Assembly (NCBI RefSeq): GCF_965363235.1
Contig: NC_134851.1
Coordinates: forward strand, 33,508,321 to 33,572,320
Origin: Mytilus galloprovincialis
Taxonomy: Eukaryota; Mollusca; Bivalvia; Mytilida; Mytilidae
Direction: 5' to 3'
Length of the DNA: 64,000 nucleotides
Shown here: positions 17 to 59,410 of the stretch, one piece after another
Numbering within the stretch: the first letter of the stretch is position 1
How the letters are laid out: every line of letters begins with the position of its first letter
The notes under the pieces: generated by a model
Seen by the model: only the letters and a program-made list of their open reading frames with translations
Database searches by the model: none
Told to the model about the DNA's origin: nothing
Translations under genes and position numbers: made by a program

Positions 17-267
17 TTATTCATTATCATGTAACTCTTCGTCGTTGACTATATAATCAAACAAAGCATTGTTATAATTTAATGTTTCGACTTCATCATA
101 GATGTCATCTGGCTTTAAGTGTATAATCGTCCTCGCGGTTTTTGCACGCTTTAAGCTGCAGATAATATGAGAACAACCACATAATGAAACAACTCCTCCA
201 GCTATACTGCCCATTAATATCCAAGGCAAACAGTACCCATATACAAACGTAGAGGTAATGCCGTTTT
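17..267 (-). CDS. Paralogue 1 last exon: TM helix and short tyrosine tail
   Basis: The acceptor is CCTTTCCAG followed by AAAACGGC, entering in phase 1. About 15 extracellular residues (GITSTFVYGYC) precede a TM helix (WILMGSIAGGVVSLCGCSHI), a basic stop-transfer stretch (SLKRAKTAR) and a cytoplasmic tail with YDEVETLNYNN. The same YDEVExLNYNN motif occurs in paralogue 2. The frame ends at TAA (17-19), but similarity to paralogue 2 continues past it (SIVES against SSIIEN), so the stop looks like a truncation rather than the ancestral end. Confidence 0.75.
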
Positions 268-1209
268 CTGGAAAGGAAGTAAAAATAAACAAGTTTATCA
301 TGTATGTTAGATATGATACATTTGTATGTATTTAACTAGACGGTACAGATTTTCGATCGCATTTTGCCTGGGACTGTTTTAAACATGCAACACTGAATAC
401 TAAAACCATATTAAGGCTATTTTTCCAGTTTAGATTCGTTTCTCATAAATACCGTTGTATAACTATGTAACCGAATATTCAAACTTAGTCGTATTTGATT
501 GCAAGCAGAACATGCAGAAGACGATACCAAAGTCGCCTTTTTTCTTTTTATTGTGGTTGACAGTATATGACACACGAAGTAGCCTGGCATTGTGCGAAAG
601 ATCAAATACCTACTGTTAATCAAATTGTCGTAGACTATTGCTATTCTTTATAAAAGAAAAGAAAAAAATACAAAGGAAACGTTCAGAATGCAATAATGCA
701 GACAAACTGACATCACCGTTGTCAAATTCAAAAAGTACCAAAAACCAGACCAGTTAAAAAAACTTCATTGAACAATTGATGACTGATGTTACATATACCG
801 AGAGGATTCATTTGTTGTATCTATGTCTTCAGAATTCATTTCATAATTTCAAGTTCAGCTAAAACAAATCCTTGCACGAAAACAAATAAACATTTTTTTT
901 TTCAGCCAGAAAATTTGACTCAATATTTTAGCTATTTATGCATTTTAACTTTGTAGTATTTGATATTACTTTCCTTGTTATTTAATGTGAGTGCCACTGA
1001 TTGGTATAATATATGGAGACGAAACAAATTATTGGCCTGGTTTTTTTTGGAGTTTTTACTTTAATTGCCGGGATTCCAATGTTTATTTCTTTTTAAATTT
1101 TTCTGAATTAAATATACAGTTCTTCTAATTCAATATAGCCATTGTCAGTTTAATGCAGAGGTCAAGTATTCAAATTATAAGTTCATATGAATCTGACATG
1201 TCAGGCTTG

Positions 1210-1217
1210 CTTCTGAA
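1210..1217. repeat. Left target-site duplication (CTTCTGAA)
   Basis: Exact 8-bp copy of 2471-2478, abutting the left terminus of the hAT-like element. Confidence 0.85.
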
Positions 1218-2470
1218 CAGACTTGGGGTAATTGTAATTGTAATCGTTAATCGTTAATCAGCTGTAAATGATTACAATTTTTCAAGTAATCATTAATCAG
1301 CAAAAAATCTGAGTACATGTAATTTAATTTAATCAATTACTTTTCAAAATACCCTGTTATCATGATTACTTTTTGATTACATTCTGATGACAATGACAAA
1401 ATCTTAGACTGTGATATGGTCAATAAATGAACCTTTTTGTTATTCTTATATAATAAATATTCAACATGTTAAGATTGGTTTACTTTATATAAGCATGTTA
1501 ATTGATTTGTATACTTCAGTAAAAAATAAACTCTTACAGTATTGAAAAGTCACTGGTAGCCTAAGAATAGACATATAGTACTCTGGCCTTATTAAGATAT
1601 ATTATACATTTATTCACAATTTAAAGATGTACATATATATATTTGATAATAACTGTTAAATTCAAGTAATACTTTTCTTTAATCCTGAATTATAATCTTT
1701 TGTTAATATTGTGATTTTAGTCAACTATGAATTGACAGATAGTAAACCAATCAAGGTTTGTTTTTATTCCAATTAGTGTTGTTGTTGGACAATATATTTG
1801 ATAAAAGATTTATCAGACATGTGAAAATTTATCTAATTAGCACAAACTAAATTAAAAGTTGGACAAATATCTGGTTAAAAATAAGCAAATTTTTGTATGT
1901 GTTTGGACTGGAAATGTAAAATGCAATGATTTTTAGTACTTGAATTTTGTTTACAATTTGATTAAACAATTCTATTAAAATTTTAAATATTTTTTAACTG
2001 GTAACTTTATTTCATCCATATTTTAACTTCCATAAACTGCATCTTGAAATACATGTAAAGTCTTTAAGAGGTTAGAAGACAAACAGCAAACTTTTTATAA
2101 AGCTATATTCAATTGAAGTCAAAATAATTCAGAGGTCAATGATGATAAAGTGTAATGGGTCATAACCAGTGACACAATGTTCGTGTATGTATGTAGTAAA
2201 CTTTTGTAGTTAATCAGATAGATGAAATTTGAAGTTATCATTCAACAAAAATGCTATAGTTATATTAAACATTGTTAAACGTTTATTCATTCACAATGTT
2301 TTTTTCAATTCATTGTAATCAGATGTAATCATGATTACTTTCCCAATGTAATCATTAATTTAATCGGACACTTTCAGAAATGATGTAATCATTAATGTAA
2401 TTTAATCGTACAAATGGCAAAGTTATTGTAATTTAATCAATTACATTTAAAGTAATCGGACCCATCTCTG
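1218..2470. mobile_element. hAT-like non-autonomous DNA transposon with 8-bp TSD
   Basis: The left end starts CAGACTTGGGGTAATTG. The right end, read on the other strand, starts CAGAGATGGGTCCGATTAC. Both fit the hAT terminal pattern CAGnnnTGGG. CTTCTGAA flanks both sides exactly (1210-1217 and 2471-2478), the 8-bp target duplication expected of hAT. The 1,253-bp interior has no transposase frame. Both ends are filled with iterated TGTAATCA / TAATTTAATC words, probably subterminal transposase-binding repeats. A transposase would have to come from elsewhere. Confidence 0.85.
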
Positions 2471-2478
2471 CTTCTGAA
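2471..2478. repeat. Right target-site duplication (CTTCTGAA)
   Basis: Exact 8-bp copy of 1210-1217, abutting the right terminus of the hAT-like element. Confidence 0.85.
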
Positions 2479-3399
2479 ACTATAATGTCAAACCCTTCCA
2501 AACTATGTAATTAATTAAAAGGCATAATCCTATCAAATCTGTCATGTTGTACTGACATTTTTTTTTGTATTAGATTGTTGCTCTATCTGCGTTTTGCTCA
2601 CATGTAATAACAGAGTGAGAGACAATGAGGTTCATGGGAGGGGGGGGGGGGCAATTAAGCTTCCACGATTACTCTTTCCAAAAAGTAAGATAACAAAATT
2701 AATGTACTCAGAGGAAAATTCAAACGGAAAGACCTTAATCAACTGGCAAAAAAAAAAAGCTCAACTCATCATTCAATTTTCCTTTAGACGTTCATGTAAT
2801 TTGGAAAGTCTTTTAGAAATGTAAAATTTGGAATGCAACTTAGATAAAAACGACGTCAGCAGTAGCATGTTTTTTTTCTTTTCTTTTTTGTAAACTTCAC
2901 ACGTTTACGTTTTCAACATTTATAGGGATTACAAAGTTTTTATATTTCATTTCGTGTTAGTGAAGTAACGCACATGTTGCAGTACTGTAATGACATTCAA
3001 AGTGTTTAATTTTGTAAATATTAAACCTACATTTCATCAATTCATTCGAAACTAAATGCCTCACCGAGAGACAAACTTACGAGAAACGGTAAAAAGGTTC
3101 TTTGAAAAAGCATATTTCGTTTCTTTAGACTGATAAAAACATTTTCAAAGACAGTAATGTTTATAACGTAAAGTCTCAGTGTTTGATTACACTGTTAATA
3201 TATAACCGTCGGCTCAAACATGAAACGGGAAACTGTATATTTGTGAGTATCTTAATTCCTTAAAAAACAATCTATAAATAACGTTTCGATATTGATATCA
3301 ACGACAGACATGATTGCTTTTGACAATCTTGGTATCGTTACAGGCAATGTTTTTGAGCAATTGAGCAACGGCATCAATTTTGAATATCGAATTTTATGC

Positions 3400-3485
3400 A
3401 TTTTTAATGCATTTTTTTATTTTTATGTATATTATTTTTTAACTTCTCTGTAACCTTTGTACTTGCATGGTTTTATGAGAATAAA

Positions 3486-3518
<33 letters not shown>

Positions 3519-3519
3519 A
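3400..3519 (+). repeat. Retroelement-like 3' end with TCTA microsatellite tail
   Basis: A run of about eight perfect TATC units (about 3486-3519) follows a T-rich stretch ending ATGAGAATAAAC. Such an AATAAA-like sequence directly before a short tandem tail is typical of LINE or SINE 3' ends, so this may be a strongly truncated insertion rather than a plain microsatellite. No coding part remains. Confidence 0.5.
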
Positions 3520-3734: not shown

Positions 3735-4043
3735 TTTCTGACACAATTCCAACCACACGATTGTTGCATCCATGTTTATTACAAACATCAGCAGTATAAT
3801 TCGTAAAATCGTCTGTTCCAGATAGTAGAAATGAAAACGAAAAGCTGATACATAAAACAGTTATATTCACTCCATAGAATTATAAATGCCCTTCACAAGT
3901 TGAATAGTGAGGCGTTACCAAAGCTTTAAACGTCTGTATCCAGCTCGTCGTTATGATTGATACTCTTATTTCAGATGAACTAAAAATGTTTTCATATTGA
4001 CCATAATATGTTCGATTATTTCCATAAACAAAGATCGGGGGCC
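3735..4043 (-). CDS. Paralogue 1 Ig/FN3-like ectodomain exon with in-frame stop
   Basis: A 309-nt exon, phase 1-1, with acceptor TTGTTTCAG and donor GTAAGC. It opens with PPIFVYGNN, matching PPVFLLNNN and PPIFISTNK in the other two genes, and closes with NYTADVCNKHGCNN, the family CNxxGC signature. The frame is kept from end to end, but a TAA sits near the middle between CEGHL and FYGVNITV. The domain is a divergent beta-sandwich whose closing strand resembles either FN3 or Ig. Confidence 0.7.
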
Positions 4044-5038: not shown

Positions 5039-5317
5039 CTTCATACGGAATAGATATCTGCTGTGTTTGGAAAAGATTTCCATTTCTTAAAGACACGCCA
5101 TTTGTCACTTTACATGTGTAGATTCCACTGTGTTGGTATTGGTTATCCTGAATAAAAAAATTTCCATCGTGTGTGCCCTTTAGATATCTGATATGTTGAT
5201 TCAGTTTTGAACAGTATTCCCAGTCTTCAAAGTAAATACTAGGCACACCTGACGCATTGCATGTAAGTTTTATACCGTCGCTTAAGTTGTACACATGTAA
5301 GGTCAACTCCGAAGGAT
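5039..5317 (-). CDS. Paralogue 1 second Ig domain exon
   Basis: A 279-nt exon (93 codons), phase 1-1, acceptor TTTATAG, donor GTAATG. The Ig core is visible: IKLTCNASG (B-strand Cys), EDWEY (core Trp) and HSGIYTCKVTNG (F-strand Y-x-C). It is the orthologous position of 19305-19586 and 55700-56012; all three end in a (P/H/Q)YEG sequence at the donor. Confidence 0.85.
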
Positions 5318-6089: not shown

Positions 6090-6422
6090 ATATCATTAGA
6101 ACTTTGAACACATGGTTGTGTGTTACATTGGTTTTAATATACTGGCATTTGTATATGCCCTCGTTTAGAGCCGAAAAATCTTCTACTACTAATTTACATT
6201 TACTCTTGTCATAATCACCAATAATATGAACGTTAGATCTATTTAATATCGGATTTAATTTTATTCCTGTAGCATACGGAATTATGTATTCCTCTTTTAA
6301 GTGATTCAATAGGGATGATATGTTTGGTCCTTTCCAGTTGCCATTATTCTCACGAAAGCAGGTGCAATTCAACACAAATTCGTCACCCCTTCGCACAAAC
6401 ACTTTGTCGCTTGTTTTAACTC
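6090..6422 (-). CDS. Paralogue 1 V-type Ig domain exon
   Basis: A 333-nt exon (111 codons), phase 1-1, acceptor TTGTATTCAG, donor GTAAGT. The Ig V-like core comprises FVLNCTC (B strand), NWKGP (core Trp), an IIGDYDKSKCKLVV strand and NEGIYKCQY (F strand). The extra cysteines of NCTC and KCKL are shared with the other two paralogues and suggest a second disulfide. It is probably the membrane-distal ligand-binding domain. Confidence 0.85.
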
Positions 6423-15023: not shown

Positions 15024-15553
15024 TCATAGTTTTCTCTTGTATATAACGAGCCAAGGATTTTTAAGATTATCTGCTGCAGTATTTGAATTATCTAGATTGT
15101 CTGCAGTCAAAATTGGTGGAAATATTATCGTGTTTTGATAATTGCACGATACGATACTACTATAATGATGCATGTCAATATCACACAAATTAAATGTCTG
15201 ATAAGGATTTTCATAACCGTCACCAGATAGTTTGATTGAAGAGCTGTCATCAGAGCTATTAACATCAACCCTTAATATAATATCGTTATTTTCGATGATA
15301 CTTGATACGTTGTCATTGTTCATATTTGCATCGTTGTTTACATTATTAATGATAACATTGTTATAATTCAAATGTTCTACTTCATCATAGTTGTCTCCTA
15401 GTGTTATTTCAATAATATTTCTTCTGCACGTTTTTTCACGCTTAAGGTAGCAGTAAATGTGCGAACAAACACAGATAGTAAGAATTCCTCCGACTAAGCT
15501 GCCAATAGTTATCCAGCAATAGTCATGTAGAAATGTAGATTTAAAGCCGTCAT
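15024..15553 (-). CDS. Paralogue 2 last exon: TM helix and full tyrosine tail
   Basis: A 530-nt coding exon with acceptor TTTTTCCAG, phase 1, ending at TGA (15026-15024). In order: a short stalk (DGFKSTFLHDYC), a TM helix (WITIGSLVGGILTICVCSHI), a basic anchor (YLKREKTCRR), then YDEVEHLNYNNV, an Asn/Asp-rich linker, GDGYENPYQTF, MHHYSSIV and NYQNTI. The last three blocks recur in paralogue 3 in the same order, which marks them as constrained. Confidence 0.88.
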
Positions 15554-18500
15554 CTGGAAAAAAATTACCAATAAACAATTTTATGTGATGTGAATTACAT
15601 GATCTTTAAAAAAAAATACAGAGATGATCTTATATTGAATCAAATTATGCTGTATTGTTTTAAATCAGGTATTAACAACTGAATTAAAAACAAAATAAAT
15701 CAATTTTCTACTCAAGATTCAAACACTTTTAACTTCGAGTGAAAGTTAGAGACCTTTTTTACTTTCTTGATGTTTTGTAATTTCGTTTATTTGTTAAGTA
15801 AAAATTGCACATGCTACTGTACCATTCTGAATTGAATTATGTTCTTTTCGTTGAAAATAAAATCATAAGATCTACCGATAAGTTGTTAAAACAAGATTAA
15901 GCTCGTGTCGACATGATCGTAAAAACTAAACGAGGCGGAACGACGCGAATGGTGTTGCTAACAAATTAATCTTTGAAGTTTCAAAGTTCAAAAAACTAGA
16001 TTGCAAATTAATCGGAGCAAAACTTAACATAAACTTTATGATATGTAACTCATATTAGAAGACTCACATAACTCAAGTCGTCGGAGACAACGAAAATATA
16101 CAGGAACAATTATTTAAATACTTCTTCTAAATAAAGGCAACAGTAATATACCGGTGTTCATAGGCCATTAATCATTTGAGAGCTAGTTCCAATCAAAACC
16201 GAAGAAAACATATGATTTTTTTTTGTATTTTTATATTTATCTAATTGTAAGACCTTTTACACGTAACTTGTTTCAAATTTGGATGTCTATCTTACAGATT
16301 GAAACGTTTTACATAAGACAGTCACTTAATGAAAATGAGTGATGAAAGAAGTAACTATATGTTCATGATGTTATTAGACATAAAACTCACTTAGAAGAAT
16401 AGTTGTTTTTCCATCTGCAATAAAATATTCAGAAATTACGATTAATAAAGACAAGTGAGCAATGGTATATACACAATATTAATTTTAGCTGCAGCTGGTT
16501 ATGATTTGTTTCTTCTAAAGAATAGTACAAAACGTCATATGTTTAGGAATATACAACTTGGTTTGCATCGAATCGACAGTAAAATCCTTTTCCAAGTTGG
16601 GAGCCTGTTTGACTGTGTAAGATGCACAGGTACACAGCCAAAGTCAGAAATTTTCTTTGAACCTTTCAGATATATTTATTAGTTAAGACTAAATTACCTA
16701 GACGTTCATTCCGTACGTCCTCCATTTAAGGAAACATCGATTGTACTTCCTGAACATGCATGGACTATTTTCACTCGATGTGTAGCAACCATTAATCAAG
16801 CAATCAATCAAAATGAATACAATATAGGAACAAAAATAAATGAAGAGAAAATACCAAACCCTCCATCAAAGCAATGGAAAACAATTGTCCTGACTTGATA
16901 CAGTCATTTCCTTCTGTAAAACATGGGGAATAAACCTAGTTTTATAGTTTCCTTACGTCTCATTTACATCTGCGAGAGTCTTATATGAGATTTACATGAA
17001 TTTTAAAGAACTGATTTTTCATGTTATATTGACATTGATTAAAATTCACGTGAATTTACTGTTAGCGAAAGGTTTTTGTGGTGATATACAAAACATAAGT
17101 CTTTCATAAACTTACCTGTTGATATAACAGTAAAGTCGAAGAAACTACACCCAAACTTATTACACAATTTTGCAGAATAATTCCTGCTTTCGCCTTTCAT
17201 AATCTTAACATTAAATTCCAGTTCGATGCATGGCACATTGACACTGACATTGTAGGATACTAAATGATCTCTACACGTCGAATTCATTAATGAACCTATC
17301 ACTTCAGACAAATGCCTTTCGTCATTCTGTTCCGTCAGTTTAAGAGTTGGTTCACTAGTGATATCAGATGAATTAAAGACTTTTAAAGTAATAATAACTT
17401 CATCACAACATTGACCAAACCAGGTTTTGTTGTTGTTTAAAAGAAACACCGGCGGCCCTGAAATATATTTAGAAACGGATTAAATATAGTAATATGACGA
17501 ATCTTAATGAGTTAGGCAATATGTTATGGTATGATAAAAAAACATTTTTGATCTTAAATAAAAGTGTGAATTTCATTTTAATATCCTTAATTAGTATATC
17601 TATATATTTTCCCTCTAATTTTTATCCTCTGCTCTTTTGGTATTGTTTTACAGCTTTTCATTTTGGAATTTTAACTTTCAACAAATAATTATTTCCATGA
17701 TATGAAAACATAATTCAATGATACATATTTCTGTAAAAATCAACAACAAAAAATCAATAATAAAAGTCTATAACTTTCATGGCTTTAAGGTTTTGAAGGG
17801 AGGGCATTCTGTTAGTTAGCGACGATAAGTGCATCAATATAATATAATTGCACATTTTTGTTAATACAACAATGTACAATATTGTACATTCTATTTAAAT
17901 GTATTATATAACATTCAACCATTCGTGTTGGTCTTAAGTGAAGAGCACTCTATTATAAATACTTAACAACTATGGAATAAATACAAACTTGTAACAACCT
18001 AAATGTCTAGATAATTACTTGAATGTCTTCCTCCCTTCAAAAAGAACTATCACTAGGTTTATAACTTGTTTGGCTTTATAAATATTTTGATATGAGCGTC
18101 ACTGAGGAGTCTTATGTAGACGAAACGCGCATCTGGCGTTCTAAATTATAATCCTTGTACCTTTTACTATTTTGTAACTATTTTCACCACTGGGTCGATG
18201 CCACTGCTGGTAGACGTTTCGTCCCGAAGTGTATCACCAGCCAAGTAGTCAACATTTCGGTGTTGACATGAATATCAATAATGTGGTCATTTGTACAAAT
18301 TTCCTTTCTACAAACCTTTGAATTTTTCAAAAAACTAAGGATATTTTCATCCCAAGCATAGATTACCTTAGCCGTATTTGGCACAATTTTTTTGGAAATT
18401 TTGGATCATCAATGCTCTTCAACTTTGAATTTGTTTGCCTTTATAAATATTTTGCTATGAGCGTCACTGATGAGTCTTATGTAGACGAAACGCGCGTCTG

Positions 18501-28205: not shown

Positions 28206-28209
28206 AGTG

Positions 28210-29750
28210 CATGTCATAGATTCAGATTCAGATTCAATATTTTATTAGAGTCTCACCACTTGCAATACATATAATACAATCATCATAATATATACATTGA
28301 ATTAAACAGTAATGTTATAAATTAAAATACAAGTGCCATTCTATAAAGAATTATGAGAGACTATAGAAATCAATATAAATTATTAACTATATATTTTATC
28401 ATGTCTATAAAACATTTTTATTATGTAAAACTATGAAACTACATTTATCATGACTTTTGTCTATAAAATATTTCAGGTCTGTAAAAACATAGTTATCAAT
28501 TAAGCATATAAAAAAACTATTTCTTCTACTTAAAATATTAAAGCAGGTCTTGGCAACCATATCAAAACAATCAGTACTTTTAAAAAGGTATATAAACTTC
28601 TCATCATTAGATAAAATATTAAAATCACCATTACTTCTTTTAACTTCATAAAATAAACTTTCACGTAAATCTGCATAAAGGAAAATCTAAAATAACATGT
28701 TTCTCATCTTCAACTTTATCATTGCACACAAAGCAAACTCTTTCATTTACAGTTTTGTTTTCATAACGACCTGTTTCTATTTGCAAGGGGGCAACGCCAC
28801 ACCTAAATTTAGCAAATGCACTTCTATAACGTATTGAAATGTTTTCCTTCAAATACATCTCTGATCCAAAAATATCTTTAAACAGTTTATAAGTACGTAA
28901 TTTTTTTCCAACATTTTGAGACAATATTCTATTATGCCAATTTATCTTATAGTTTTCAAATAAAAAATATTCTAACTGTGTAATCACAATGTTATGTAAC
29001 ACATTATCCAAATTAGTGTATCAATCTACATTATATTTTCTAAATTTTGACATAATTCTATAACAACAATTTTTCTTTTTATCAATGGCATTCCTAACTG
29101 CCCATTGAAATACTTTATAATTCACCCTATCTGTTGACACAACATTACATCTAGCCCTATGTCTAAAACCACAACTCCACTGCTTCAGACATGGAGGTTC
29201 CCAAACCATATCCCCATTAATGGCATCACAAGGTGTATATTTACCAAGACCCATAAAAATCGGATAGCTCTTTGCTGAACAGCATTAATACAAGAAAAAT
29301 CTCTGGTGCCCCAAATGGCTGCACCATAACTTATGACTGACCAGAATAAGCTATCAAAAAGTTTTGTATATGTATTAAAGTGGAAACCTCCATGTGATTT
29401 ACTCTTTACACTCAGTAAACTTAATGCTCTCTCTGCTGCCCTGGCTACAGATTTTGCCATTTCATCATAATCAAGAAATTCAGTCAACAATAGACCAAGA
29501 TATTGATATTTTGATACAATAAACAATTGTTTTTCACCAGGTAAAAATATGTGATGGTTGTACAGAGGGATTTCTAAAAATGCACAATCTTCGTCTTTTC
29601 AAAGTAAACATTCAATAACTTATCTTTACACCATGTATTAAGAATATCTAGCATTAGTTGTACATCATTTTCATTTTCAGCAATTAATACAATATCATAT
29701 GTCATACAGAAATATTTTTGATCAAAACAAATACTCAAACTTTATTCAAA
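28210..29750 (-). mobile_element. 5'-truncated non-LTR retrotransposon (LINE)
   Basis: On the minus strand the remaining reverse-transcriptase part begins near the catalytic strand (YDIVLIAENENDVQL, where a FADD/YADD box is expected). It continues with YQYLGLLL, ARAAERALSLL and YGAAIWGT, and then a C-terminal Cys motif (VCFVCNDKVEDEKHVI). Translation ends near 28498. The 3' end carries a GAATCT tandem tail at 28210-28240. The frame is broken in several places: the D of the catalytic pair is altered, and reading shifts near 29200, 29020 and 28670. It looks jockey/CR1-like but the clade is unsettled. Confidence 0.75.
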
Positions 29751-36190: not shown

Positions 36191-36526
36191 ATACTGTTTG
36201 GAAGTAGATATTTACCTGTACATACCAAATTGTCTTTATAGCTACTGAATAAAAATTTATTTCCATTTTGTCATACAGTTTATACTTTTTGCATTGGATC
36301 GGTTTTAAGAGATCTTCTGACACCAGAAGTAACTACTTTTACTTTTAACTGTGACAAGAAAAATGGAAAGTATTGATCCCCGGACAAAAAAAAAATATAC
36401 CTTGTTATTGTATTTCCCCATGAAATAAATATAGAATGACATCTTTTAAAATTAGTTTAACTTTAGGAACTTCATCTTCCCATAAATATAATTGAAAAAT
36501 GATACCAACAAACCTTTTCTACGTAC

Positions 36527-43400: not shown

Positions 43401-46400
43401 GTCTTTTTATTATATTTAGGTGTTACGGATAGAAAAATTAATCACCGCCTTTATTTATTATATTTAATTTTGTACGATTAAATACGTTTGAAGTTGGATT
43501 CATAACAAACTGGACATACATATATTACAGTTAATTGCTATTAATAAGTATTGCAATATGCATTTTGTTTAAATGAATTATCAGTATTTCGTTCTAATAT
43601 AATATTAAAGCAATCCTAATTCTATCTCACTTTTGAATTATAGTTTTTCATGTGTGACGTCATGCTCTTTCTAAATTTCATAAATTCAAATGTGGCATAA
43701 CGTTTGCCTTTTCGCCATCGTATGTGACGTCATTTTTTTTAATTGCATAGACGCCTGGACTGATTCGGGTGTGTCTATGCTGTATTGAACTTGGCATCAT
43801 GTATTCGGGTTTAGTTTTCTGTAATAAGTTAATACTTCAGTTTCATTATGAATATATCTTTCACATTCATTTGTTAAAATTTACTGTTTGCAATAGCATG
43901 AATCGTTCTATATAATAGTGTTCTTATCCCGGGCATAAAAACAATGCCGTATTTGGCAAAACCTTTTCAACTTTTGATCTTCAGTGCTGTACAACTTTGT
44001 ACTTTTTTCACTTTCGATCTTTTATATCTGGGCGTTATGTATTCGGGTTTAGTTTTCTGTAATTAGTTAATACTTCAGTTTCATTATGTATATCTCTTTC
44101 ATATTCATTTGATAAAATTTACTGTTTGCAATAGCATGAATTGTTCTATATAATAAGAATGTTCTTATCCCGGGCATACAAACAATGCCGTATTTGGCAA
44201 AACCTTTTCAACTTTTGATCTTCAGTGCTGTACAACTTTGTACTTTTTTCACTTTCGATCTTTTATATCTGGGCGTTATGTATTCGGGTTTAGTTTTCTG
44301 TAATTAGTTAATACTTCAGTTTCATTATGTATATCTCTTTCATATTCATTTGATAAAAATTACTGTTTGCAATAGCATGAATTGTTCTATATAATAAGAA
44401 TGTTCTTATCCCGGGCATACAAACAATGCCGTATTTGGCAAAACCTTTTCAACTTTTGATCTTCAGTGCTGTACAACTTTGTATTTTTTTCACTTTCGAT
44501 CTTTTATATCTGGGCGTGACTGGTGAGTCTTGTGTGGACAAGACGCGTTTTTGGCGTATTGAATTTTAAACCTGATGTTTTTTGTTATCTATTAATCATG
44601 CTTTTCTTTGTCTAATATGTTCTCCTTTTTATTTGTATTGTAGTCCTGTAATATTATGTTGTCATTTTAATGTTATATTTAACTTTGCCATTAAAGTGCG
44701 AGGTTTGGCATGCCATAAAACCAGGTTCAACCCACCACTTTTATTCCCCTTTAAAAGTGTCCTGTACCAAGTCAGGAAGATGGCCATTGTTATAATATTG
44801 TTCGTTTCTGTGTGTGTTGCATTTTAACGTTGAGTCGTTTGTGTTTTCTCTTATTTTTGAGATATTGAGATAAGACATGGCACGGTACTTGTCTATCCCA
44901 AATTCATGTATTTGGTTTTGATGTTATATTTGTTATTCTCGTGGTGTTTTGTCTGTTGCTTGGTCCGTTTCTGTGTGTGTTGCGTTTCGGTGTTGTGTCG
45001 TTGTTCTCCTCTTATATTTAATGCGTTTTTTTCGGTTTTAGTTTGTTACCCCGATTTTGTTTTTTGTCCATGGATTTATGAGTTTTGAACAGCGGTATAC
45101 TACTGTTGCCTTTATTTACAGCTGGTATGTGTCTCGCTCATTGTTGAAGGCCGAACAGTGACCTATAGTTGTTAATTTCTGTGTAATTTGGTCTCTTGTG
45201 GAGAAATGTCCCATTAGCAATCTTACCACATCTTCTTTTTTATATGTATAGACTTACAAATTTTGACTCAACTGTATTGTTTCAAACTAGGAACCATGAT
45301 ATCAAATTAAAAGTTGTAATGCATGTTGCATAAGGCATAAATGTGCTGATCCAGTCATCAGAGCAACATCAAATTATAAATTTACATAAGCTAGGGTACT
45401 ATAGGTTAATGTTTCTTTCTTTTGGATTGAAATTTAAGGGGGAAATTCAAGAAATATATCAGAAACAGCAGTGGTGGATACAGAATAGGGAAACCTCCCT
45501 TTTTAAGATTATCAGTGTATTTGAATGGGGACATATGGTTGGAGCTCCCCTTCAGGCTTTATCTTATGTTGGGAACCCCCCTTTTTGGAAATGGCTGGCC
45601 CCTGAACAGAATCTTTTTCTCATTAAAGAAAACTAATATCTTCTTTTAATATTTGACTTACCAATATTTTAAGTTATCTTTAGTAGGTAAACCATATAAA
45701 ACCCTAATCATGTCCTAGATGATCCGAGATGAACTGAGTGAAAGTGAAAGTAAAAATGAAAGTAAAATGGTTTTTTTTCTGAGAAACAGACTATATTGGT
45801 CCCAGTCACACTGAAAAGTTGATACCAGTTTATTATTTACGAAGGTCAATGTCATAGATGAGAAATGTTTTACCTTTAACATCACAAACATCCTGCACAT
45901 TTACAGAGTGTACCCCTTTCCTATTAACGAATGATGCTTCATCTTCTGATGGAGCCTGGATACGGACGTGTGTCCCATCTATTGCCCCTAGCACATTCGG
46001 GAAACCACTTAGACGGTAAAAGTCTCCTCTTGTTTCGTCCACATTCCTTGGCCACTTGATGAATTCATCCCGCTTGTTACAAAGTGATGTCAACACATCA
46101 GACACAAAACGCGAGACAGTTCCCTTGTGCAAACCTGTAAACAGACCAAGAACATACAATTTGGGAGATCGTTTAAGAACAAAAAATAAAATGTGTATTT
46201 TACCGGCGTTTGTTTACATTTTCGAAAATTAACAAATTGAAATTATCATTCAAACATCAGTCAAAGATCATTATAGCAATTGATTAACACAATTTTACTA
46301 ATGTTTACTTAATTTTAAATCATATATGATAAATATATAAATGAAATCTTACCTATTGTGTCTCCAACTACTTGCAAAAAACTGCCTGTAGCAAGAAATC

Positions 46401-46961: not shown

Positions 46962-47464
46962 CTAGGGTTTTGTGTAATTATCAATTGCTGTATTAATGTA
47001 CTCTGCAGAAGTTGATGCCGCGCTTTTCGGTGATATAATTGTATTCTGATAAATATTTGGGATGATGCCACTGTATTGATGCATTTCGATTACTGAAGGA
47101 GTTATTGCCTGATAGGCATTTTCATAACCGTCACCAGTTTGTCCTATGAATGAGCTTGCGTTAGAGCTGTGCCCACAAGCACTTGACGGAACATCATTAC
47201 TATCGTCCTCCTCATAAGATTCATTGTCACTATTATCTAGTTCAAAATTAGTTATTGGATCAACAATCACCATGTTATAATTTATTGTACCAATGTCATC
47301 ATATTGACTTTCTGGAGTGATTTCCACCGTCGCACCGGATCTGTTTTGTCTCCTCAAACGGCAATACATATGTGAAATAATACAGCATAGAAATATTCCT
47401 CCGATAATGGTTCCAATAACCACCATGCAACCATTGTTTGCAGAAGGCGGAATTAGTTCATACT
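46962..47464 (-). CDS. Paralogue 3 last exon: TM helix and full tyrosine tail
   Basis: Acceptor TCTTTTTTCAG, phase 1. A stalk (YELIPPSANNG), a TM helix (CMVVIGTIIGGIFLCCIISH) and a basic anchor (RLRRQNRSG) precede the tail motifs SQYDDI, INYNMV, GDGYENAYQA, MHQYSGI and IYQNTI. The stop TAG is at 46962-46964. SQYDDI and INYNMV each fit the ITIM consensus. Confidence 0.87.
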
Positions 47465-47694
47465 CTGAAAAAAGATAAATTTCTTTTAATTTTATGCACG
47501 TTTGATTGTCAGTTTACTGAACTTTTGAAAAAGTTTAATGTTACTCCTACTCTACTTGTAAAACGAGATTATCAAGCGAGTTTACTAAATTGATTTTCTA
47601 GCATGGATAATGCTTTTACTTGTTGTATAACAAAATATTTATTTTCGATAGTGTTTTTAGGAGATTTTCATTTGGTAACCAGAGTATATATAAA

Positions 47695-48130
47695 AATGAA
47701 GATGTGGTTTGATTTCCCATCAGATAACACTGCACAAGAGACAAAAATACACAGAAACTAACAGTTATGATTCATCGTATGGCCTTCAACAATGATCAAG
47801 TCCAAAACCGCATAGGCGCGAAAATGTGAAACGATTCAAACGAGAAACAGTCTAATTAATTTTAAAAAAAGAAACACTAATATGTAACACAGCAAAAAAC
47901 GATAACCACAAAAAACAGGCTCCTGACGTAAGCAGGATGATTCATACAGAATGTGACAGGAGTAAACATGTGAGCAGAATCCAAACACTCCTCCTAATCT
48001 TGGACGATGGCAAAACAATACAAAATAACAACAAAATAACAGTTGAAAAGGCTAAACTCATCAGATGGATAAGAATAGAAAAACATATAACAAAAACATG
48101 AATGGATTTGGCCAGGTACGGGTAAATCTC
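47695..48130 (-). repeat. Dispersed mussel repeat in duplicated unit, copy 1
   Basis: GATGTGGTTTGATTTCCCAT starts it; ATGGCCTTCAACAATGATCA, CAGGCTCCTGACGTAAGCAG and TTGAAAAGGCTAAACTCATC follow. It is the reverse orientation of the repeat type at 45100-45245. The open frame at 47836-48018 is part of the repeat. Confidence 0.65.
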
Positions 48131-48880
48131 ACAATCAAACAGACACTCAGTACATATCTGAGAGTACTTGCAATTATTGAGAGCTAGTTCAAAGCCAATG
48201 ACAACTTATAGAAGCAATAATATATATAAGATTTAATAATCAATCAGTACACATTCAACATACAATTTAATAAGTGTAAACATGTCATAAACAGTCTGAG
48301 AAAAACATGACCGTGTACAATGCCAAGATATAAGAATCGACAGATTGAAGATCACTGAAAGTGCATATGTATATAACAATAATATGTAATTTCGTTCAAA
48401 TCTACTGATAACAAAATCTATATTAATTAATGATATAGAAATACTTCATTTGATTTTTTTCTTAAAAGAGAACAATATTCAAAGATCCAATGACAGTCTT
48501 GCATAGGTAATCTTTTAGAATACTGTTTTTTCAAGGATCGTTTCTAAATGACCTAGGACAGTAAACCACATCTCCGTAATAATGAGGATGTGTTATCCCG
48601 CTTGAAGTTTATTTTTGACGGTAACAACCAAACTTCTAAACTTCTTGACTAAATGTGTATATCTATGGAAAAATTTAGTAAAAGTTTTAAGTAAATGGTG
48701 GTAACGAAATCCCTGATTTAATATTAACGAGTAATACAAAGATAATGTTAAAATCTTAAACGTCACAACAGACAACATCACCATAAAAAGGGAAAATAAG
48801 CGATAGGCAGTCATGGTGTCTAGCAGTAGTGTCAAAGTCATTACGCATACAGTTATGAGTCTTATCATGTGATCTAAATT

Positions 48881-49089
48881 TTATTTACATTTGATAGTGT
48901 CACCATTGTAGGGGTTGTTGCCATCATATTGACTTTCTGGAGTGATTTCCACCGTCGCACCGGATCTGTTTTGTCTCCTCAAACGGCAATACATATGTGA
49001 AATAATACAGCATAGAAATATTCCTCCGATAATGGTTCCAATAACCACCATGCAACCATTGTTTGCAGAAGGCGGAATTAGTTCATACT
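48881..49089 (-). CDS. Duplicated TM exon with alternative short tail
   Basis: The second copy of the TM exon keeps its acceptor, stalk, TM helix and YDD start. At the duplication junction it leaves the original frame and reads YDGNNPYNGDTIKCK then TAA (48881-48883). It lies before the original exon in the direction of transcription. If used it would give a membrane receptor with a tail of about 40 residues lacking NYNM, YENAYQ and YQNTI. No evidence of use is available. Confidence 0.5.
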
Positions 49090-49319
49090 CTGAAAAAAGA
49101 TAAATTTCTTTTAATTTTATGCACGTTTGATTGTCAGTTTACTGAACTTTTGAAAAAGTTTAATGTTACTCCTACTCTACTTGTAAAACGAGATTATCAA
49201 GCGAGTTTACTAAATTGATTTTCTAGCATGGATAATGCTTTTACTTGTTGTATAACAAAATATTTATTTTCGATAGTGTTTTTAGGAGATTTTCATTTGG
49301 TAACCAGAGTATATATAAA

Positions 49320-49755
49320 AATGAAGATGTGGTTTGATTTCCCATCAGATAACACTGCACAAGAGACAAAAATACACAGAAACTAACAGTTATGATTCAT
49401 CGTATGGCCTTCAACAATGATCAAGTCCAAAACCGCATAGGCGCGAAAATGTGAAACGATTCAAACGAGAAACAGTCTAATTAATTTTAAAAAAAGAAAC
49501 ACTAATATGTAACACAGCAAAAAACGATAACCACAAAAAACAGGCTCCTGACGTAAGCAGGATGATTCATACAGAATGTGACAGGAGTAAACATGTGAGC
49601 AGAATCCAAACACTCCTCCTAATCTTGGACGATGGCAAAACAATACAAAATAACAACAAAATAACAGTTGAAAAGGCTAAACTCATCAGATGGATAAGAA
49701 TAGAAAAACATATAACAAAAACATGAATGGATTTGGCCAGGTACGGGTAAATCTC
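49320..49755 (-). repeat. Dispersed mussel repeat in duplicated unit, copy 2
   Basis: Identical copy of 47695-48130, displaced by 1,625 bp with the tandem duplication. Confidence 0.65.
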
Positions 49756-50698
49756 ACAATCAAACAGACACTCAGTACATATCTGAGAGTACTTGCAATT
49801 ATTGAGAGCTAGTTCAAAGCCAATGACAACTTATAGAAGCAATAATATATATAAGATTTAATAATCAATCAGTACACATTCAACATACAATTTAATAAGT
49901 GTAAACATGTCATAAACAGTCTGAGAAAAACATGACCGTGTACAATGCCAAGATATAAGAATCGACAGATTGAAGATCACTGAAAGTGCATATGTATATA
50001 ACAATAATATGTAATTTCGTTCAAATCTACTGATAACAAAATCTATATTAATTAATGATATAGAAATACTTCATTTGATTTTTTTCTTAAAAGAGAACAA
50101 TATTCAAAGATCCAATGACAGTCTTGCATAGGTAATCTTTTAGAATACTGTTTTTTCAAGGATCGTTTCTAAATGACCTAGGACAGTAAACCACATCTCC
50201 GTAATAATGAGGATGTGTTATCCCGCTTGAAGTTTATTTTTGACGGTAACAACCAAACTTCTAAACTTCTTGACTAAATGTGTATATCTATGGAAAAATT
50301 TAGTAAAAGTTTTAAGTAAATGGTGGTAACGAAATCCCTGATTTAATATTAACGAGTAATACAAAGATAATGTTAAAATCTTAAACGTCACAACAGACAA
50401 CATCACCATAAAAAGGGAAAATAAGCGATAGGCAGTCATGGTGTCTAGCAGTAGTGTCAAAGTCATTACGCATACAGTTATGAGTCTTATCATGTGATCT
50501 AAATTTTATTTACATTTGATAGTGTCACCATTGTAGGGGTTGTTGCAATATTGAGTTCATATGATCACGCTATAATAAACTAATAAAATAAATTTGATAT
50601 TTTAAGCAAGAAAATACACTTACGTCAGACACGCATTCACACAGAATCAAAATAGTCGATCACATAGCCAACTAGAATCATCCCGATTATGTACTTAC

Positions 50699-50989
50699 CA
50701 AAAATTCTAGCTTCTGTAACATTTGTATATTCACTATCTCCAATTACATTTCTAGAAAAAATGCGCACAAAATATTGTTTTTTTTATACAAGTTCATATA
50801 TAGCGTATTTGTTTTCATTTTCCAAGGTAGCTTTTATTGGACCTTTGATTGTCCACCATTTTCTGTCAATATTTCGATACTGTATAAAGAATAATTGATT
50901 GAATCCTCCATTAAAACCTGGAATCCATGACACTATTATATGGTTTCTGTATTGAACCACTGTTATATTGTTTGCAGGTTCTGGTATAC
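50699..50989 (-). CDS. Paralogue 3 FN3 domain exon with in-frame stop
   Basis: A 291-nt exon (97 codons), phase 1-1, acceptor ACTGTTAAG, donor GTAAGT. FN3 hallmarks: IPEPANNITVV, IIVSWIPGFNGGFNQLF (core Trp and the PGFNGG turn seen in nephrin-like FN3 domains) and YFVRIFSRNVIGDSEY. A TAA stands between KYAIYELV and KKQYFVRI, at the edge of a run of eight A. The exon length stays a multiple of three. No equivalent exon was found in paralogues 1 and 2. Confidence 0.75.
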
Positions 50990-51621
50990 CTTAACAGTAA
51001 GAATAATTTCGAACTTAACACGTTAACATAAATTACACTGTATTATGAAAATAAAGCAAATTCAATAAGGAGAACAACAAGCGAGACATGCATAAGTAAA
51101 TCGCAGAAAAGGATTTTGAGAAAATCAGAACGTGACCAAATAAATTAGATTATAATACTCAAAGAATATGTTTAATTATCAAATATGCAAAGTCGTATAG
51201 ACGTTAATGTAACAATTATGATACTAATTAAATAGACATTAGCTGTCAAATTCAATTTCACCGCTTTGACCCAAATTCAAGATTTAAGTTTAGTAAAATC
51301 AAACGTGAATCGTAACAATACGAAGTATAATATAAACAGTTAACGACGCATGTACTCGATAAAAGATAACAATATCTTGTGTATATTTAAATCTAGCCTC
51401 CGTTTCATTTACCCCACTGGTGACCTTCCAAAACTGCCGATCGACGAGCATACAACCTGATCAAGCGATATAAACATAAATATAGATAGAAATATGAAGT
51501 AAAAACATTGCTTATATATAATTTTTTCAAGGTCTGTTGGCCATGGATTTCTGATCTATCTAAATAGTAAGAACAATTTACAAGTTAACACAACAACAAA
51601 ATGTACACTGTATTGAATAGA

Positions 51622-51989: not shown

Positions 51990-53880
51990 TGATTATGCCA
52001 GGCAATGGGCTAAGCGCGAGAAGGAAGACGTAGACACTCTTTCCGAATGGATTAAGGCAGTAAGGTCGTTGATAAAAATCAGAATTAAGAAACTGAATGG
52101 GTCCATCAATGCCCATGCTACGTCAATTTTTAAAGACTTAAATATTGCAAAAGACCTATCCGACCTCCATGACAAATATGTTGTTGTCCCCGCAGATAAA
52201 GCCCAAATAACATCGTTTTTGTGTGTAAAAGTTATTACGTTAACTGCTTGACAAACGAATTAGGTATTGCCAATTCACTTGGAAACTCAACATATACACT
52301 CACGACACTTACCAAAGAGGAAATCCTGGATAATCATAGGTCTGTTCTATGTTCCTTTGGAATTTCAACCAAAGATGAAGAAGTGGATTTTCCATCACTG
52401 TATTGGATACCTAAACTACATAAGTGTCCTTACAAACAACGGTATATTGCTTGGTCTTCCAAGTGCTCCACGAAACCTCTTTCTAAATTATTAACATCTA
52501 TTTTATCAGCAATCAAAGACGGGCTTCAAAGTTATTGTGAAACTGCCTATTTTAGAGGTGGCGTGAATCAGATGTGGATACTTAAAAATTCCAAAGATCT
52601 TTTAGAGTACATACAATCTAACTCTCTTTCATCTTGTAACAGTATTAAAACATTGGACTTTTCTACTCTTTACACAAGTATTCCATATTCCAAACTAAAA
52701 GACAAATTGAAAGAGTTGGTATTACTTTGATTCATAAAAAAGAATGGCCAACGTAGATACATGTATCTTATCTTAGGGAAGGATAAATCCGACTTTGTAA
52801 AGAATCACTCTGATTCAAACAAAAAAATTTCTGAAACTGATATTATCAAGATGCTTGATTTCTTGATTGACAACATATTTGTTACGTTCGGAAGACGTGT
52901 TTTTCAACAGACTGTCGGCATTCCAATGGGAACAAACTGTGCCCCTCTACTTGCCGACTTGTTTCTTTATCACTATGAGGCTCACTTTATGCAGGAACTT
53001 CTCAGGAAGAAAGATAAGAAGTTAGCAATATCCTTTAACTCTACTTTCCGCTATATAGATGATGTTCTTTCACTAAACAATTCAAAATTTGGTGACTATG
53101 TGGAATGCATCTATCCCATCGATCTAGAGATAAAGGATACTACAGATACAGTTAAGTCGGCTTCATATCTTGACTTACATCTTGAAATTGACAATGAGGG
53201 TCGGTTGAAAACAAAACTTTACGACCAAAGAGATGATTTTAGCTTTCCAATTGTGAACTTTCCATTTCTAAATAGCAACATTCCAGCAGCACCTGAATAC
53301 GGGGTACATATCTCCCAATTGATACGATATTCCCGTGCTTGCATTTCTTATCATGATTTTCTTGATAGAGGGTTGCTGCTCACAAGGAAGCTATTAAACC
53401 AAGAGTTCCAAATGGTGAAGTTGCAATCATCCCTTCGTAAATTTTACGGACGCCATCACGAGTTGGTTGATTGTTATGGAATAACCGTTTTACAAATGAT
53501 ATCGGATATGTTCCTTACGTCGTAACTACAATCTTCTTCCCTTTCATGAATGTGACCTACCGAATTAGACTATTTACCGGATTTGTAATCTCATAAGCAA
53601 CACGACGGGTGCCACATGTGGAGCAGGATCTGCTCACCCTTCCGGAGCACCTGAGATCACCCCTAGTTTTTGGCGGGATTTGTGTTGTTTATTCTTTAGT
53701 TTTCTATGTTGTGTCATGTGTACTATTGTTTTTCTGTTTGTCTTTTTCATTTTTAGCCATGACGTTGTCAGTTTGTTTTAGATTTATGAGTTTGACTGTC
53801 CCTTTGGTATCTTTCGTCCCTCTTCTATTTGTAATCGTAAGTAATTATTGTTCTTATTTCCCATTATCATATTACTAGTG
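51990..53880 (+). mobile_element. Penelope-like retroelement, reverse transcriptase region, broken
   Basis: The coding part reads across more than one frame, with about two or three breaks, so it is a fossil copy. Recognisable blocks: YVVVPADKAQ, YWIPKLHKCPYK, LDFSTLYTSIP, FQQTVGIPMGTNCAPLLADL, the catalytic FRYIDDVLS and a conserved end (SSLRKFYGRHHELVDCYGI). These fit Penelope-like polymerases. No GIY-YIG endonuclease is seen after the polymerase. A 3' untranslated stretch runs to about 53880 and is shared with the relics at 4464, 12190, 55235 and 58560. The clear sequence suggests moderate age. It lies in the intron between the FN3 and Ig/FN3-like exons of paralogue 3. Confidence 0.75.
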
Positions 53881-53926: not shown

Positions 53927-54247
53927 TTGCTGATCTAAGGTAAACAGTATACGAATTACACCCTTTTAAGTTACAAGCCTCTATTGTATAATTTACAAAG
54001 ACTTCCTCTGTCACTACGCCAAGATGTACAACAACTGTTATCTCAGGTACAATTAATTTGAAACTATGGAATAAATTTGAAATATGTGCCCTTCTCATCG
54101 TTATACTTGGATGTAGAACCTTGTTATGATTTGATATGTTCAGTCTTAAAATATCAAGTGCACTGTGCAAAACGAATGTAATATTCAGATCACATCTATA
54201 TATCCCAAACTGTACTCTTTTGTTTGTTGAAATAAAGATGGGCGGTG
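53927..54247 (-). CDS. Paralogue 3 Ig/FN3-like exon, acceptor AG lost
   Basis: A 321-nt block (107 codons), phase 1-1, donor GTACGT. It starts PPIFISTNKRVQFG and ends NYTIEACNLKGCNSY, with the family CNxxGC motif; fully open. By alignment the exon should begin at CACCGCC, but the two bases before it are TG instead of AG (TTATTTG). The exon may be skipped or spliced from a cryptic site. Confidence 0.68.
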
Positions 54248-55590: not shown

Positions 55591-55699
55591 GCATGTATGC
55601 ATTACTTCGTGAGGTGTGTTCAATTCTTAAAACATATCAACCAAAGAAAAAAAACATCTATATGAAAGTAAAAGAAAATGACATAAAAAATAAATATAC

Positions 55700-56012
55700 C
55701 TTCATATTGAACAGATACTGCTCCTTCCTGAAACAAATTTCCATTTCTAGCCTTTATACCATTCGATACTCTACATACGTAAATGCCAAAATGTTCAGGA
55801 AGTGTTTTATTGCTTTGTGCTATTATCGAGTACGATGGATTGGGTTGAATGTCAAACATGATGTGGTATCATTGACAACTGAATAATTTACATTCCCTTT
55901 CCATTTGATCTGATCCAATGGGGGATTGCTGTTTCCATGACAACACACTTGTGACATAGTATTTTCTATCATCTTTTAAAGGCAGGATGATCGACAATCA
56001 GCGATGGTTTGT
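55700..56012 (-). CDS. Paralogue 3 third Ig domain exon, frame broken
   Basis: Acceptor TTTTGTAG and donor GTATAT bound a 313-nt block. The frame entered from the acceptor (KPSLIVDHPAFKR) stops at TGA. An Ig B-strand and core (QVCCHGNSNPPLDQIKW) is in a second frame. The F strand (EHFGIYVCRVSNGIKARNGN, ending SVQYEG) is in a third. The equivalent exons of paralogues 1 and 2 are open, so two small indels have broken this one. One indel lies in an A-run, so a sequencing or assembly error is possible. Confidence 0.7.
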
Positions 56013-57182: not shown

Positions 57183-57473
57183 ATCGAATATCCAGTATAA
57201 CTGTATCTGTCAATGGCCTTTCTAACATGGCACTGACGGCAGAACATTGAAATGATTTCAAATTGTCCTTTTTACTTGGAACAAACGAAAATGTTATATT
57301 ACTACTCCCATTGCTCTGAAGGGTTGAACCGTTTTCAGTTAAAATGAGAGTTGCTGCTGGTTTACCGCTGTTTACAGAACAAACTATATCTAGTTTATGT
57401 CCTGCGATTCCTCGAATATGTTTCTTGTGTCTCCTTTCGAACGTATTCAGGAAAGTCAAGTTGTTTGGTGGAC
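57183..57473 (-). CDS. Paralogue 3 CD80-like C2 Ig domain exon
   Basis: A 291-nt exon (97 codons), phase 1-1, acceptor ATATTTAG, donor GTAAGT, open. GHKLDIVCSVNSGKPAATLI (B to C strands, the GKPAA turn typical of CD80-like C2 Ig) and LKSFQCSAVSAMLERPL (F strand). Paralogues 1 and 2 show no equivalent, so it was gained here or lost there. Confidence 0.82.
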
Positions 57474-57937: not shown

Positions 57938-58279
57938 TCTTTAAATCAACGGCGAATACAAGTACGTAAACTATTCCAGATTTCCAATGCTCGCAATTGT
58001 AATTCCCCACACCTAAGTCCGAAAAATTTCGGACAACCAAACTGCATTGATCGTTTTCATTATATCCAATAATATCAATGTTCAAGTTGATAAGTTTCGG
58101 ATTGAGAGTTAGGCCAGCCGTATAAGGTTCTTCCTCATATTTATCCATTTTTGTAATTGAAGATATTTTTGGACCTGACCATGAACTTTCATTATGCAGA
58201 CTGCATGTACAATTGAGGACAACATTGTCACCCTTGTCTGCAAAAATCTGTGTGTTTGTTCTTCTAAAAGTAACATAAC
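57938..58279 (-). CDS. Paralogue 3 V-type Ig domain exon
   Basis: A 342-nt exon (114 codons), phase 1-1, acceptor TATGCAG, donor GTAAGT, open. Ig V-like core: VVLNCTC, ESSWSGP, IIGYNENDQCSLVV and GVGNYNCEHW. It joins the signal-peptide exon in frame (codon G-GT). Confidence 0.86.
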
Positions 58280-58559
58280 CTGCATAATAATACAGTCAAT
58301 TAATGTTTAAATTATTTCAGCAAATATATAACCTTACCTTTTCTTCAATATGTTTTAATATAACAGTATTTGAATATAATTTGGCAGACGAAGTCAATGC
58401 AATGATAAGTTTATACCATTTTCACCTTGTTTAGAAAAAAAACCAGATGTGTAATATATTTGTTTGTAAATTTTCTGTGATAAAACGGGTGTTTCTAAAA
58501 GAATTATACAAATAATATACGAAATAAGATTAAGACAAACACGACATAGTTAACTGAAG

Positions 58560-58860
58560 ACTAAGCAACACGAACCCCATCATAAACTGGGGACATCTCA
58601 GATGCTCCGAAAGGGTAAGCAGATCCTGCTCCACATGTGGTATCCGTCGTGTTGCTTATGTTTTTACAAGCCCGGTAAATAGTCTATTCGGTAGGTCACA
58701 TTCGTGGTGAATAGGAAAGTGGGTTGGTGTAATATGTACGACATCAGATACCTATCCGATATTGTCTGTTAAACTGTTATTCCATAACGATCAACCAACT
58801 CATGATGGCGTCCGTAAAATCTACGAAGTGATGATTTCAACTTCACCATTTGGACCTTTT
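58560..58860 (-). mobile_element. Truncated Penelope-like element, 3' end only
   Basis: Read on minus it matches the end of the polymerase region and the untranslated end of 51990-53880 (TGGTGAAGTTGAAATCATCA, ACCACATGTGGAGCAGGATC, CGTGTTGCTTAG). Inverted relative to the larger copy and located in intron 1 of paralogue 3. Confidence 0.75.
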
Positions 58861-59089
58861 GGTTTGATACGCTTACAAAGATGAAGAGAAAATTGCTTGT
58901 TACTTTTTTTAATGCTATTAAATAGGTTGCAAATGTTAACGTTGACAATCATCTTTATTGTTTTAAAAAAAAGTATTGTCAACCTTAAATATCCATAAAA
59001 GTTCAAACAAGAAGCACGAGAAGATTACTGATCGATATTCATTTTCATTCACCATTCAGGTTACATATGTTATAACTTACTCGGTGTGA

Positions 59090-59207
59090 GTCATGGCTCC
59101 GTGTTGAAGGCCGTACTTTCATTCTATTGTTGTTTACATTTTACAAATTGTGATTGGATGGAAAGTTGTCTCATTTACACTCATACTACATCTTCTTATT
59201 CATGATT
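59090..59207 (+). repeat. Dispersed repeat module ('catcttctt' end)
   Basis: TGTTGAAGGCCGTACTTTCA, GGATGGAAAGTTGTCTCATT and ACTACATCTTCTTA; closest to 39140-39260. Confidence 0.6.
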
Positions 59208-59346
59208 TTCAAACATGTGGTTTCGTTTGCCAATATTTGCAAGTCTTTATTGTTGAGATGGTAAGTATGACATCCTTTTTAAAATTAATAATTGAAAAAT
59301 ATCGGTATTTATTTATTCATTAGAATCTAATATTGTTATATACTAC

Positions 59347-59410
59347 CTGAAAAATAACAATCAAGCAGAAACAACAAAAATATCTTCAAAATACAGCAAC
59401 TGACGAGCAT
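59347..59410 (-). CDS. Paralogue 3 first coding exon: signal peptide
   Basis: The ATG at 59410-59408 opens MLVSCCILKIFLLFLLDCYF, a classic signal peptide with a Leu/Phe core, and ends at donor GTAGTA after one base of the next codon (phase 1). This matches the phase of the V-type Ig exon 1.1 kb downstream. The promoter and 5' untranslated end cannot be fixed from sequence alone. Confidence 0.75.

Follow-up and report, generated by a model that had tools for sequence, protein, structure and literature searches.

The 64-kb stretch of the Mytilus galloprovincialis genome analysed here (C14:33508321-33572320 of a 1.385-Gb genome; hereafter the window, with a G+C content of 29-34%) carries on its minus strand three paralogous immunoglobulin (Ig) receptor genes, arranged head to tail and numbered 1 to 3. 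An earlier note on this DNA had described three such paralogues, each with a V-type Ig domain, a second Ig domain, a third domain, a transmembrane (TM) helix and a cytoplasmic tail, and exons for all of these parts were indeed found in all three genes. In genes 1 and 2 a single last exon encodes both the TM helix and the tail, and the TM cores of the window genes are, by eye, free of Lys, Arg, Asp and Glu. The exon joins are phase 1 wherever both edges could be read, and exons can therefore be added or removed without damage to the reading frame. The exons are as follows.

1-267, minus strand: gene 1 TM helix and start of the tail (YDEV, NYNN), with an in-frame stop at 17-19; the exon leaves the window
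3735-4043, minus strand: gene 1 third-domain exon, with an in-frame stop at 3880-3882
5039-5317, minus strand: gene 1 second Ig exon (Pfam Ig_3, E = 2.2e-7)
6090-6422, minus strand: gene 1 V-type Ig exon, phase 1-1
15024-15553, minus strand: gene 2 TM helix and entire cytoplasmic tail, last exon, no break seen (YDEV, NYNN, GDGYENPYQTF, YSSI, YQNTI, C-terminal PWLVIYKR)
17116-17457, minus strand: gene 2 third-domain exon, no Pfam match, weak AlphaFold model
19305-19586, minus strand: gene 2 second Ig exon (weak Pfam Ig match, best E = 2.7e-4; 3' edge set by eye)
27428-27757, minus strand: gene 2 V-type Ig exon with four conserved cysteines
46962-47464, minus strand: gene 3 TM and tail exon (YDDI, NYNM, GDGYENAYQAI, YSGI, YQNTI), with a stop at the position of the relatives' Trp
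48881-49138, minus strand: gene 3 TM/tail exon, cut-off second copy in a tandem duplication
50787-50990, minus strand: gene 3 half exon resembling FN3 by eye, without a match to Pfam FN3
53928-54245, minus strand: gene 3 third-domain exon, expected acceptor without AG
about 55698-56012, minus strand: gene 3 Ig exon whose frame changes twice
57183-57473, minus strand: gene 3 extra C2-type Ig exon (Pfam C2-set_2, E = 3.5e-5)
57938-58279, minus strand: gene 3 V-type Ig exon
59344-59410, minus strand: gene 3 candidate signal-peptide exon

Genes 1 and 2 showed neither the extra C2-type Ig exon nor the FN3-like half exon of gene 3. No signal-peptide exon was found for gene 1 in our scan, and the candidate for gene 2 (36343-36442), a single weak stretch in the scan, was not accepted. 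The third domain gave no match for genes 2 and 3 in the Pfam search, and structure models were weak, with predicted local distance difference test (pLDDT) scores of 54 for the V domain and only 38.5 for the third domain.

The V domain was assessed on 16 of the 23 V exons collected in the genome; L042, L044, L047, L054, L055 and L056 were omitted as broken or near copies, as was L040, the V exon of the relative g33622, which has no open V frame. Pfam V-set matched 15 of the 16 at E ≤ 0.01, with a best value of 5.3e-6; the gene 2 exon scores 24.5 bits, slightly below the curated cut-off of 26. Four cysteines, two of them beyond the classic pair, are invariant across the 16 exons and therefore suggest a second disulfide in the V domain. 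A V profile retrieved 846 PDB sequences at E ≤ 1, the best of which include CEACAM proteins, junctional adhesion molecule-like, single-chain variable fragment (scFv) antibodies and CD4. For the second Ig exons, matches to I-set were obtained, together with weak ones to contactin-5 and DSCAM.

Tyrosine motifs of the receptor tails

The earlier note had also read in the tails a series of tyrosine blocks kept in the same order. This holds for genes 2 and 3, in which YDEV or YDDI is followed by NYNN or NYNM, GDGYENxYQ, YS(S/G)I and YQNTI. For gene 1, only YDEV and NYNN lie inside the window, its GDGYEN block falling beyond the left edge, after the in-frame TAA at 17-19. The blocks are not a product of chance, because a genome-wide count of the DNA pattern for GDGYENxYQ gave 12 forward and 0 reversed occurrences, and that for YENPYQ 30 and three, respectively; 26 of these 30 lie in the C14, C11, C7 and C8 loci. 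The YDEIGxI pattern occurs 33 times versus seven reversed, with 19 occurrences in the same loci or on C12.

We then considered what is conserved across 26 aligned tails (24 from C14 and two from C8, without L025, L026, L037, L038 and repeats of a locus). The layout of the family comprises a YDEI site, an ENPYQxI/V-x9-YxxI/L/V unit that overlaps a YxN site, and an invariant YQNT site, likewise of the YxN type. With the majority residue averaging 54% per alignment column, tyrosine is kept in 26 tails at YDEI, 25 at YEN, 26 at YQ, 25 at YSSI, 26 at YQNT and 24 at the C-terminal IIY. The Grb2-type YxN pattern proposed for the tails was likewise confirmed, YxN at YQNT being present in 26/26.

Spacing within the tail is conserved as well. 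Of 40 distinct tails, drawn from C14, C8, C11, C7 and C12, 38 have a nine-residue spacer, YQxx-x9-Yxxx, and the two exceptions have lost a tyrosine (this set leaves aside the repeats L002 and L008, the partial L038 and the long C11 tail formed by L007 with L070, and takes from L012 only the part after its stop). The two tyrosines lie 13 residues apart in all 37 tails that have both anchors. The distance from YDE to YEN is variable, at 58-68 residues on C14 and C8 and 117-184 on C11, C7 and C12. A strict pattern resembling the immunoreceptor tyrosine-based activation motif (ITAM), [DE]xxYxx[ILV]-x(6-12)-Yxx[ILV], which admits V beside I and L, fits 35 of the 40 distinct tails. In a 37-tail set that skips L012, L036 and L037, it fits 35 tails versus 241 of 18,500 shuffles (1.3%).

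Several of the tail sites had been proposed to fit the immunoreceptor tyrosine-based inhibitory motif (ITIM), [SIVL]xYxx[ILV]. For single sites this is correct: LNYNNV in gene 2 and SQYDDI and INYNMV in gene 3 all fit, while the first tail part of gene 1 (DIYDEV, LNYNNA) shows no fit by eye and the YS(S/G)I sites, with His at -2, fall outside the motif. As a family signature, the ITIM was rejected, since 10 of 25 distinct C14 tail open reading frames have no match (L012 among them, represented by its post-stop part only) and the remaining ones have matches at differing sites, some of them before the TM helix. At the level of sequence, the conserved signature of the family is ITAM-like, not ITIM.

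Family members, their integrity and selection

How large is the family? A tail query gave at least 36 matches at E ≤ 1, of which 28 lie on C14 at 33.118-34.417 Mb (one being the cut-off copy of gene 3), two on C8 and six, all weak, elsewhere; these counts are lower bounds. Among 69 matches to a V query, the 22 best (E under 1e-10) are all on C14 at 33.26-34.13 Mb. By these searches, the C14 cluster would comprise some two dozen neighbouring Ig receptor genes. Many further clusters of related Ig exons were noticed across the genome, on C14 (3.7-4.3, 18.1-18.4, 28.7-29.8 and 40.0-40.1 Mb), C5 (2.8-3.6 Mb) and C6 (27.6-29.4 Mb).

Sister loci were recovered with a 57-residue tail query from C7, which returned 43 matches at E ≤ 10, including C7, C11, C8, C12 and C14 tails, those from C14 being individually weak (E 0.05-8.6). 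An exon related to the second Ig exon of gene 2 lies upstream of the tail, on the same strand and within 12 kb, at 6/6 tail loci on C7, 5/9 on C11 (three of these matches being weak, E 0.1-0.2) and 1/1 on C12 (containing a stop). Some tails repeat the cassette: three frames each hold two matches to the C7 query, and one C7 tail has three full ITAM-like cassettes. In a C11 tail (L007 and L070, about 48.6896-48.6943 Mb), one open frame, at least 1112 residues long, holds 16 YEN units, most of them at intervals of about 59 residues.

The state of the copies varies. Gene 2 is the only gene of the window in whose exons no break was found. Gene 1 has two in-frame stops, one in the third domain (3880-3882) and the tail TAA at 17-19. 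In gene 3 the frame changes twice within an Ig exon, the third-domain acceptor is without AG, and a stop at 46962-46964, near the end of the tail, takes the place of the relatives' Trp. Gene 3 also contains a 1.64-kb tandem duplication (47294-48932 and 48919-50554, 99.76% identical), which carries the cut-off second TM/tail exon. Genes 1 and 3 thus look broken, a point that the earlier note had missed; they come from one assembly, so that sequencing error or a haplotype difference could account for some of this. Other C14 members are broken as well, g33622 in its V exon and tail, g33601 in its Ig and third-domain exons and g33915 in its tail, and the matched exons of g33574, g33586 and g33641 are without stops. 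From sequence, the pattern suggests a birth-and-death history of the tandem genes.

Several other C14 copies deserve mention. The tail exons L024, L025 and L026 (33.379, 33.394 and 33.400 Mb) encode identical protein within aligned flanks about 98-99% identical, as very recent tandem copies would. An orphan gene-1-type tail exon (L075, 33.6105-33.6110 Mb) lies within g33601, a broken gene-3-type copy. Tail L011 does not form a gene with V exon L053, and this pairing was rejected: L053 belongs to g33601, and L011 is an orphan tail exon inside it. Two apparent short-tail members at 33.26 and 33.49 Mb (L077 and L076, respectively) were also rejected as such. Related V, Ig and third-domain exons are present at both, their TM exons precede likely splice donors (by eye), and their tails would therefore lie in exons that we did not see.

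Selection on the tails is uneven. Over 62 pairs, the ratio of nonsynonymous to synonymous substitution rates (dN/dS) is 0.27 for the motifs, versus 0.55 for the linkers, and 0.58 for the TM/juxtamembrane part; together with the retention of each tyrosine in 24-26 of the 26 tails, this agrees with the proposal that the receptors form a multigene family whose tail tyrosines are under constraint. Seven recent tail pairs pool to 0.45 (0.36-0.58), single pairs ranging from 0.25 to 1.17. A tail ratio near 1 had been named as evidence that would speak against constraint. Because the pooled values are 0.40 to 0.45 in non-overlapping pairs, constraint stands, a single pair (g33854/g33915) being at 1.17. 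The accompanying claim of fast-changing ectodomains holds weakly, in that four recent non-overlapping pairs give 0.79 for V exons (bootstrap 0.55-1.15) versus 0.40 for tails (0.31-0.54); broader comparisons, given below, do not repeat this.

V and tail modules appear to have been exchanged between paralogues, to judge from one clear case. The V exon of g33834 groups with that of g33854 (support 100/97.7; approximately unbiased (AU) test versus g33980, p = 0.019), and its tail groups with that of g33980 (97/99.8; AU test versus g33854, p = 6.7e-5).

Probable signalling and alternative readings

On balance, and by a little, we lean towards the view that the three window genes belong to a family of single-pass Ig receptors, clustered and encoded in the germline, that exchange modules and signal through tyrosine phosphorylation of ITAM-like tails, probably on immune cells. 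The receptors would probably be innate and activating. Ligand binding would cluster them, and a Src-type kinase would phosphorylate the ITAM-like tyrosine pair, on which a tandem-SH2 protein, either a Syk-type kinase or SHP-2, could dock. Grb2-type adaptors may bind the YxN sites, and the resulting signal would probably be activating. Exchange of V and tail modules could pair new binding faces with a conserved signalling tail. SH2 domains gave 54 matches in the genome, with one exon closest to SHP-2 and one to Csk. As a side observation, a Csk-like kinase gene (C4:57704700-57714200) has two SH2 exons about 1.1 kb apart and, by eye, kinase-like exons; the usual Csk has one SH2 domain.

A number of observations weigh against this view. 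The strict ITAM-like pattern fits gene 3 and fails in gene 2 and gene 1 because of their YQTF and YQAT, respectively. The common ITAM spacer is 6-8 residues, shorter than the nine found here. The 38 of 40 tails with the conserved spacer are not independent, many being close relatives, and the spacer therefore shows conservation, not independent invention. The 16-unit C11 array is mostly degenerate: the YQ tyrosine is present in 7/16 units and one unit fits the strict pattern, which rules out reading the array as 16 ITAM-like cassettes (9/16 being without the YQ tyrosine). Syk was not identified among the 54 SH2 matches, though it was not sought by name. As for the ectodomains, 30 pairs pooled give dN/dS of 0.43 for V exons versus 0.49 for tails, with V higher in 10/30, and a 28-pair set that still joined L053 to L011 gives the same two values. 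Over 136 pairs of 17 genes, mean identity is practically equal (0.424 for V and 0.420 for tails), the tail being more alike in 59. For module exchange, the clades tested were picked after the distances had been seen, and in a second case, g33947, one grouping is rejected on the tail side (p = 5e-4) and the other is not rejected by the V exon (p = 0.46). Finally, the YxxI/V/L sites equally fit endocytic sorting.

The last point leads to an alternative that we consider unlikely, in which the tyrosines are YxxPhi sorting signals for clathrin uptake and the proteins are scavenging or adhesion receptors that recruit AP-2, not SH2 proteins. YDEI, YQTI and YSSI each fit YxxPhi by eye, the degenerate C11 array retains YxxI-type sites as it loses the ITAM pattern, and the resemblance of the second Ig exons to I-set, contactin-5 and DSCAM would suit such a role. 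However, sorting needs no fixed 13-residue register between tyrosines, yet 37/37 tails hold it, and YxN, kept at YQNT throughout the aligned tails, is not known as a sorting rule. Less probable again are inhibitory, ITIM-type receptors recruiting SHP-2: the three window sites that fit the ITIM and the SHP-2-like SH2 exon agree with them, but the shifting positions of ITIM matches, their absence from 10 of the 25 C14 frames and the His at -2 of the YS(S/G)I sites do not. Weakest is an allorecognition (self/non-self) complex of the kind seen in Hydractinia (Alr) and Botryllus (fuhc), which, for all that both use ITAM/ITIM-type tails (PMC12065747) and that the mussel genes are clustered V-type Ig receptors with one clear module exchange, we find highly doubtful, given that mixed mussel hemocytes are reported to have shown no alloresponse (PMC12956514) and that paralogue number alone equally fits pathogen recognition.

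Our preferred reading, that of ITAM-like signalling receptors, can be set beside known systems. Vertebrate FcgammaRIIA and CD3 zeta carry the ITAM in the receptor's own tail, and several ITAMs may stand in tandem; compared by description only, the spacer and flanking motifs of vertebrate ITAM Ig receptors differ from those of the mussel family. The nearest published mollusc receptor that we saw is oyster CgIgIT/CgIgIT2 (Crassostrea gigas), a single-pass Ig receptor with an ITAM that is said to act in hemolymph defence via ERK (PMC11999971). Compared by description only, CgIgIT has five Ig domains in one receptor, and the section of that review on it makes no mention of a cluster, a fixed spacer or repeated cassettes. 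The Botryllus FcoR family at the fuhc locus, as described, resembles the mussel family in being clustered and in combining a V-type Ig, a C2 Ig and a TM helix with tyrosine-motif tails (ITIM, hemITAM or YxxI/L/V); it differs in having a sushi domain and paired FF/FcoR genes, whereas the mussel exons scanned gave no sushi match and no pairing was noticed (PMC12065747). In the same source, Hydractinia Alr is presented as a single-locus set of candidates for allorecognition that bear ITAM/ITIM motifs. Their function is self-recognition, and the likeness is one of description, not sequence; clustered Ig receptors with tyrosine-motif tails, the trait common to the Alr and fuhc types, are found in the C14 family too. 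Biomphalaria PTC2/GRC is a cluster of single-pass transmembrane genes tied to parasite resistance and said to have no known domain beyond the TM segment, whereas the mussel family has Ig domain matches (PMC7494358). The mussel genes are built like an ITAM receptor cluster, a likeness of architecture that need not mean membership in the CgIgIT, FcoR, Alr or PTC2 families.

ITAM-type Ig receptors are a known kind, and the clustered mussel Ig family with its ITAM-like tail is probably a novel form of it; the family is not described in the titles or abstract openings of the top-ranked papers on the topic. To our knowledge, the receptors by which bivalve immune cells discriminate microbes, parasites and foreign cells are largely an open matter. 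The C14 locus, whose roughly two dozen Ig receptors carry an ITAM-like switch open to experiment, and the sister loci with repeated switches offer concrete molecules for such work. Bivalves suffer contagious cancers. As a long shot, the loci may correspond, in an invertebrate, to the leukocyte receptor complex: several clusters would share one ITAM-like module under exchangeable V-type heads, module number (one, two or three, and a mostly degenerate 16 in one gene) would tune the signal, and the receptors might possibly form a barrier to transmissible mussel leukaemias.

Mobile-element remnants

The window also contains traces of mobile elements. A reverse transcriptase remnant lies between gene 3 exons at 52200-53525 on the plus strand (RVT_1, E = 9e-4, below the cut-off). 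Transposase fragments (DDE_Tnp_4) are present downstream of gene 3, on the minus strand, at 41673-41930 and 45836-46213. Upstream of the gene 2 V exon, open frames at 28405-29598 on the minus strand resemble, by eye, remnants of long interspersed nuclear elements, two of them having no Pfam match.

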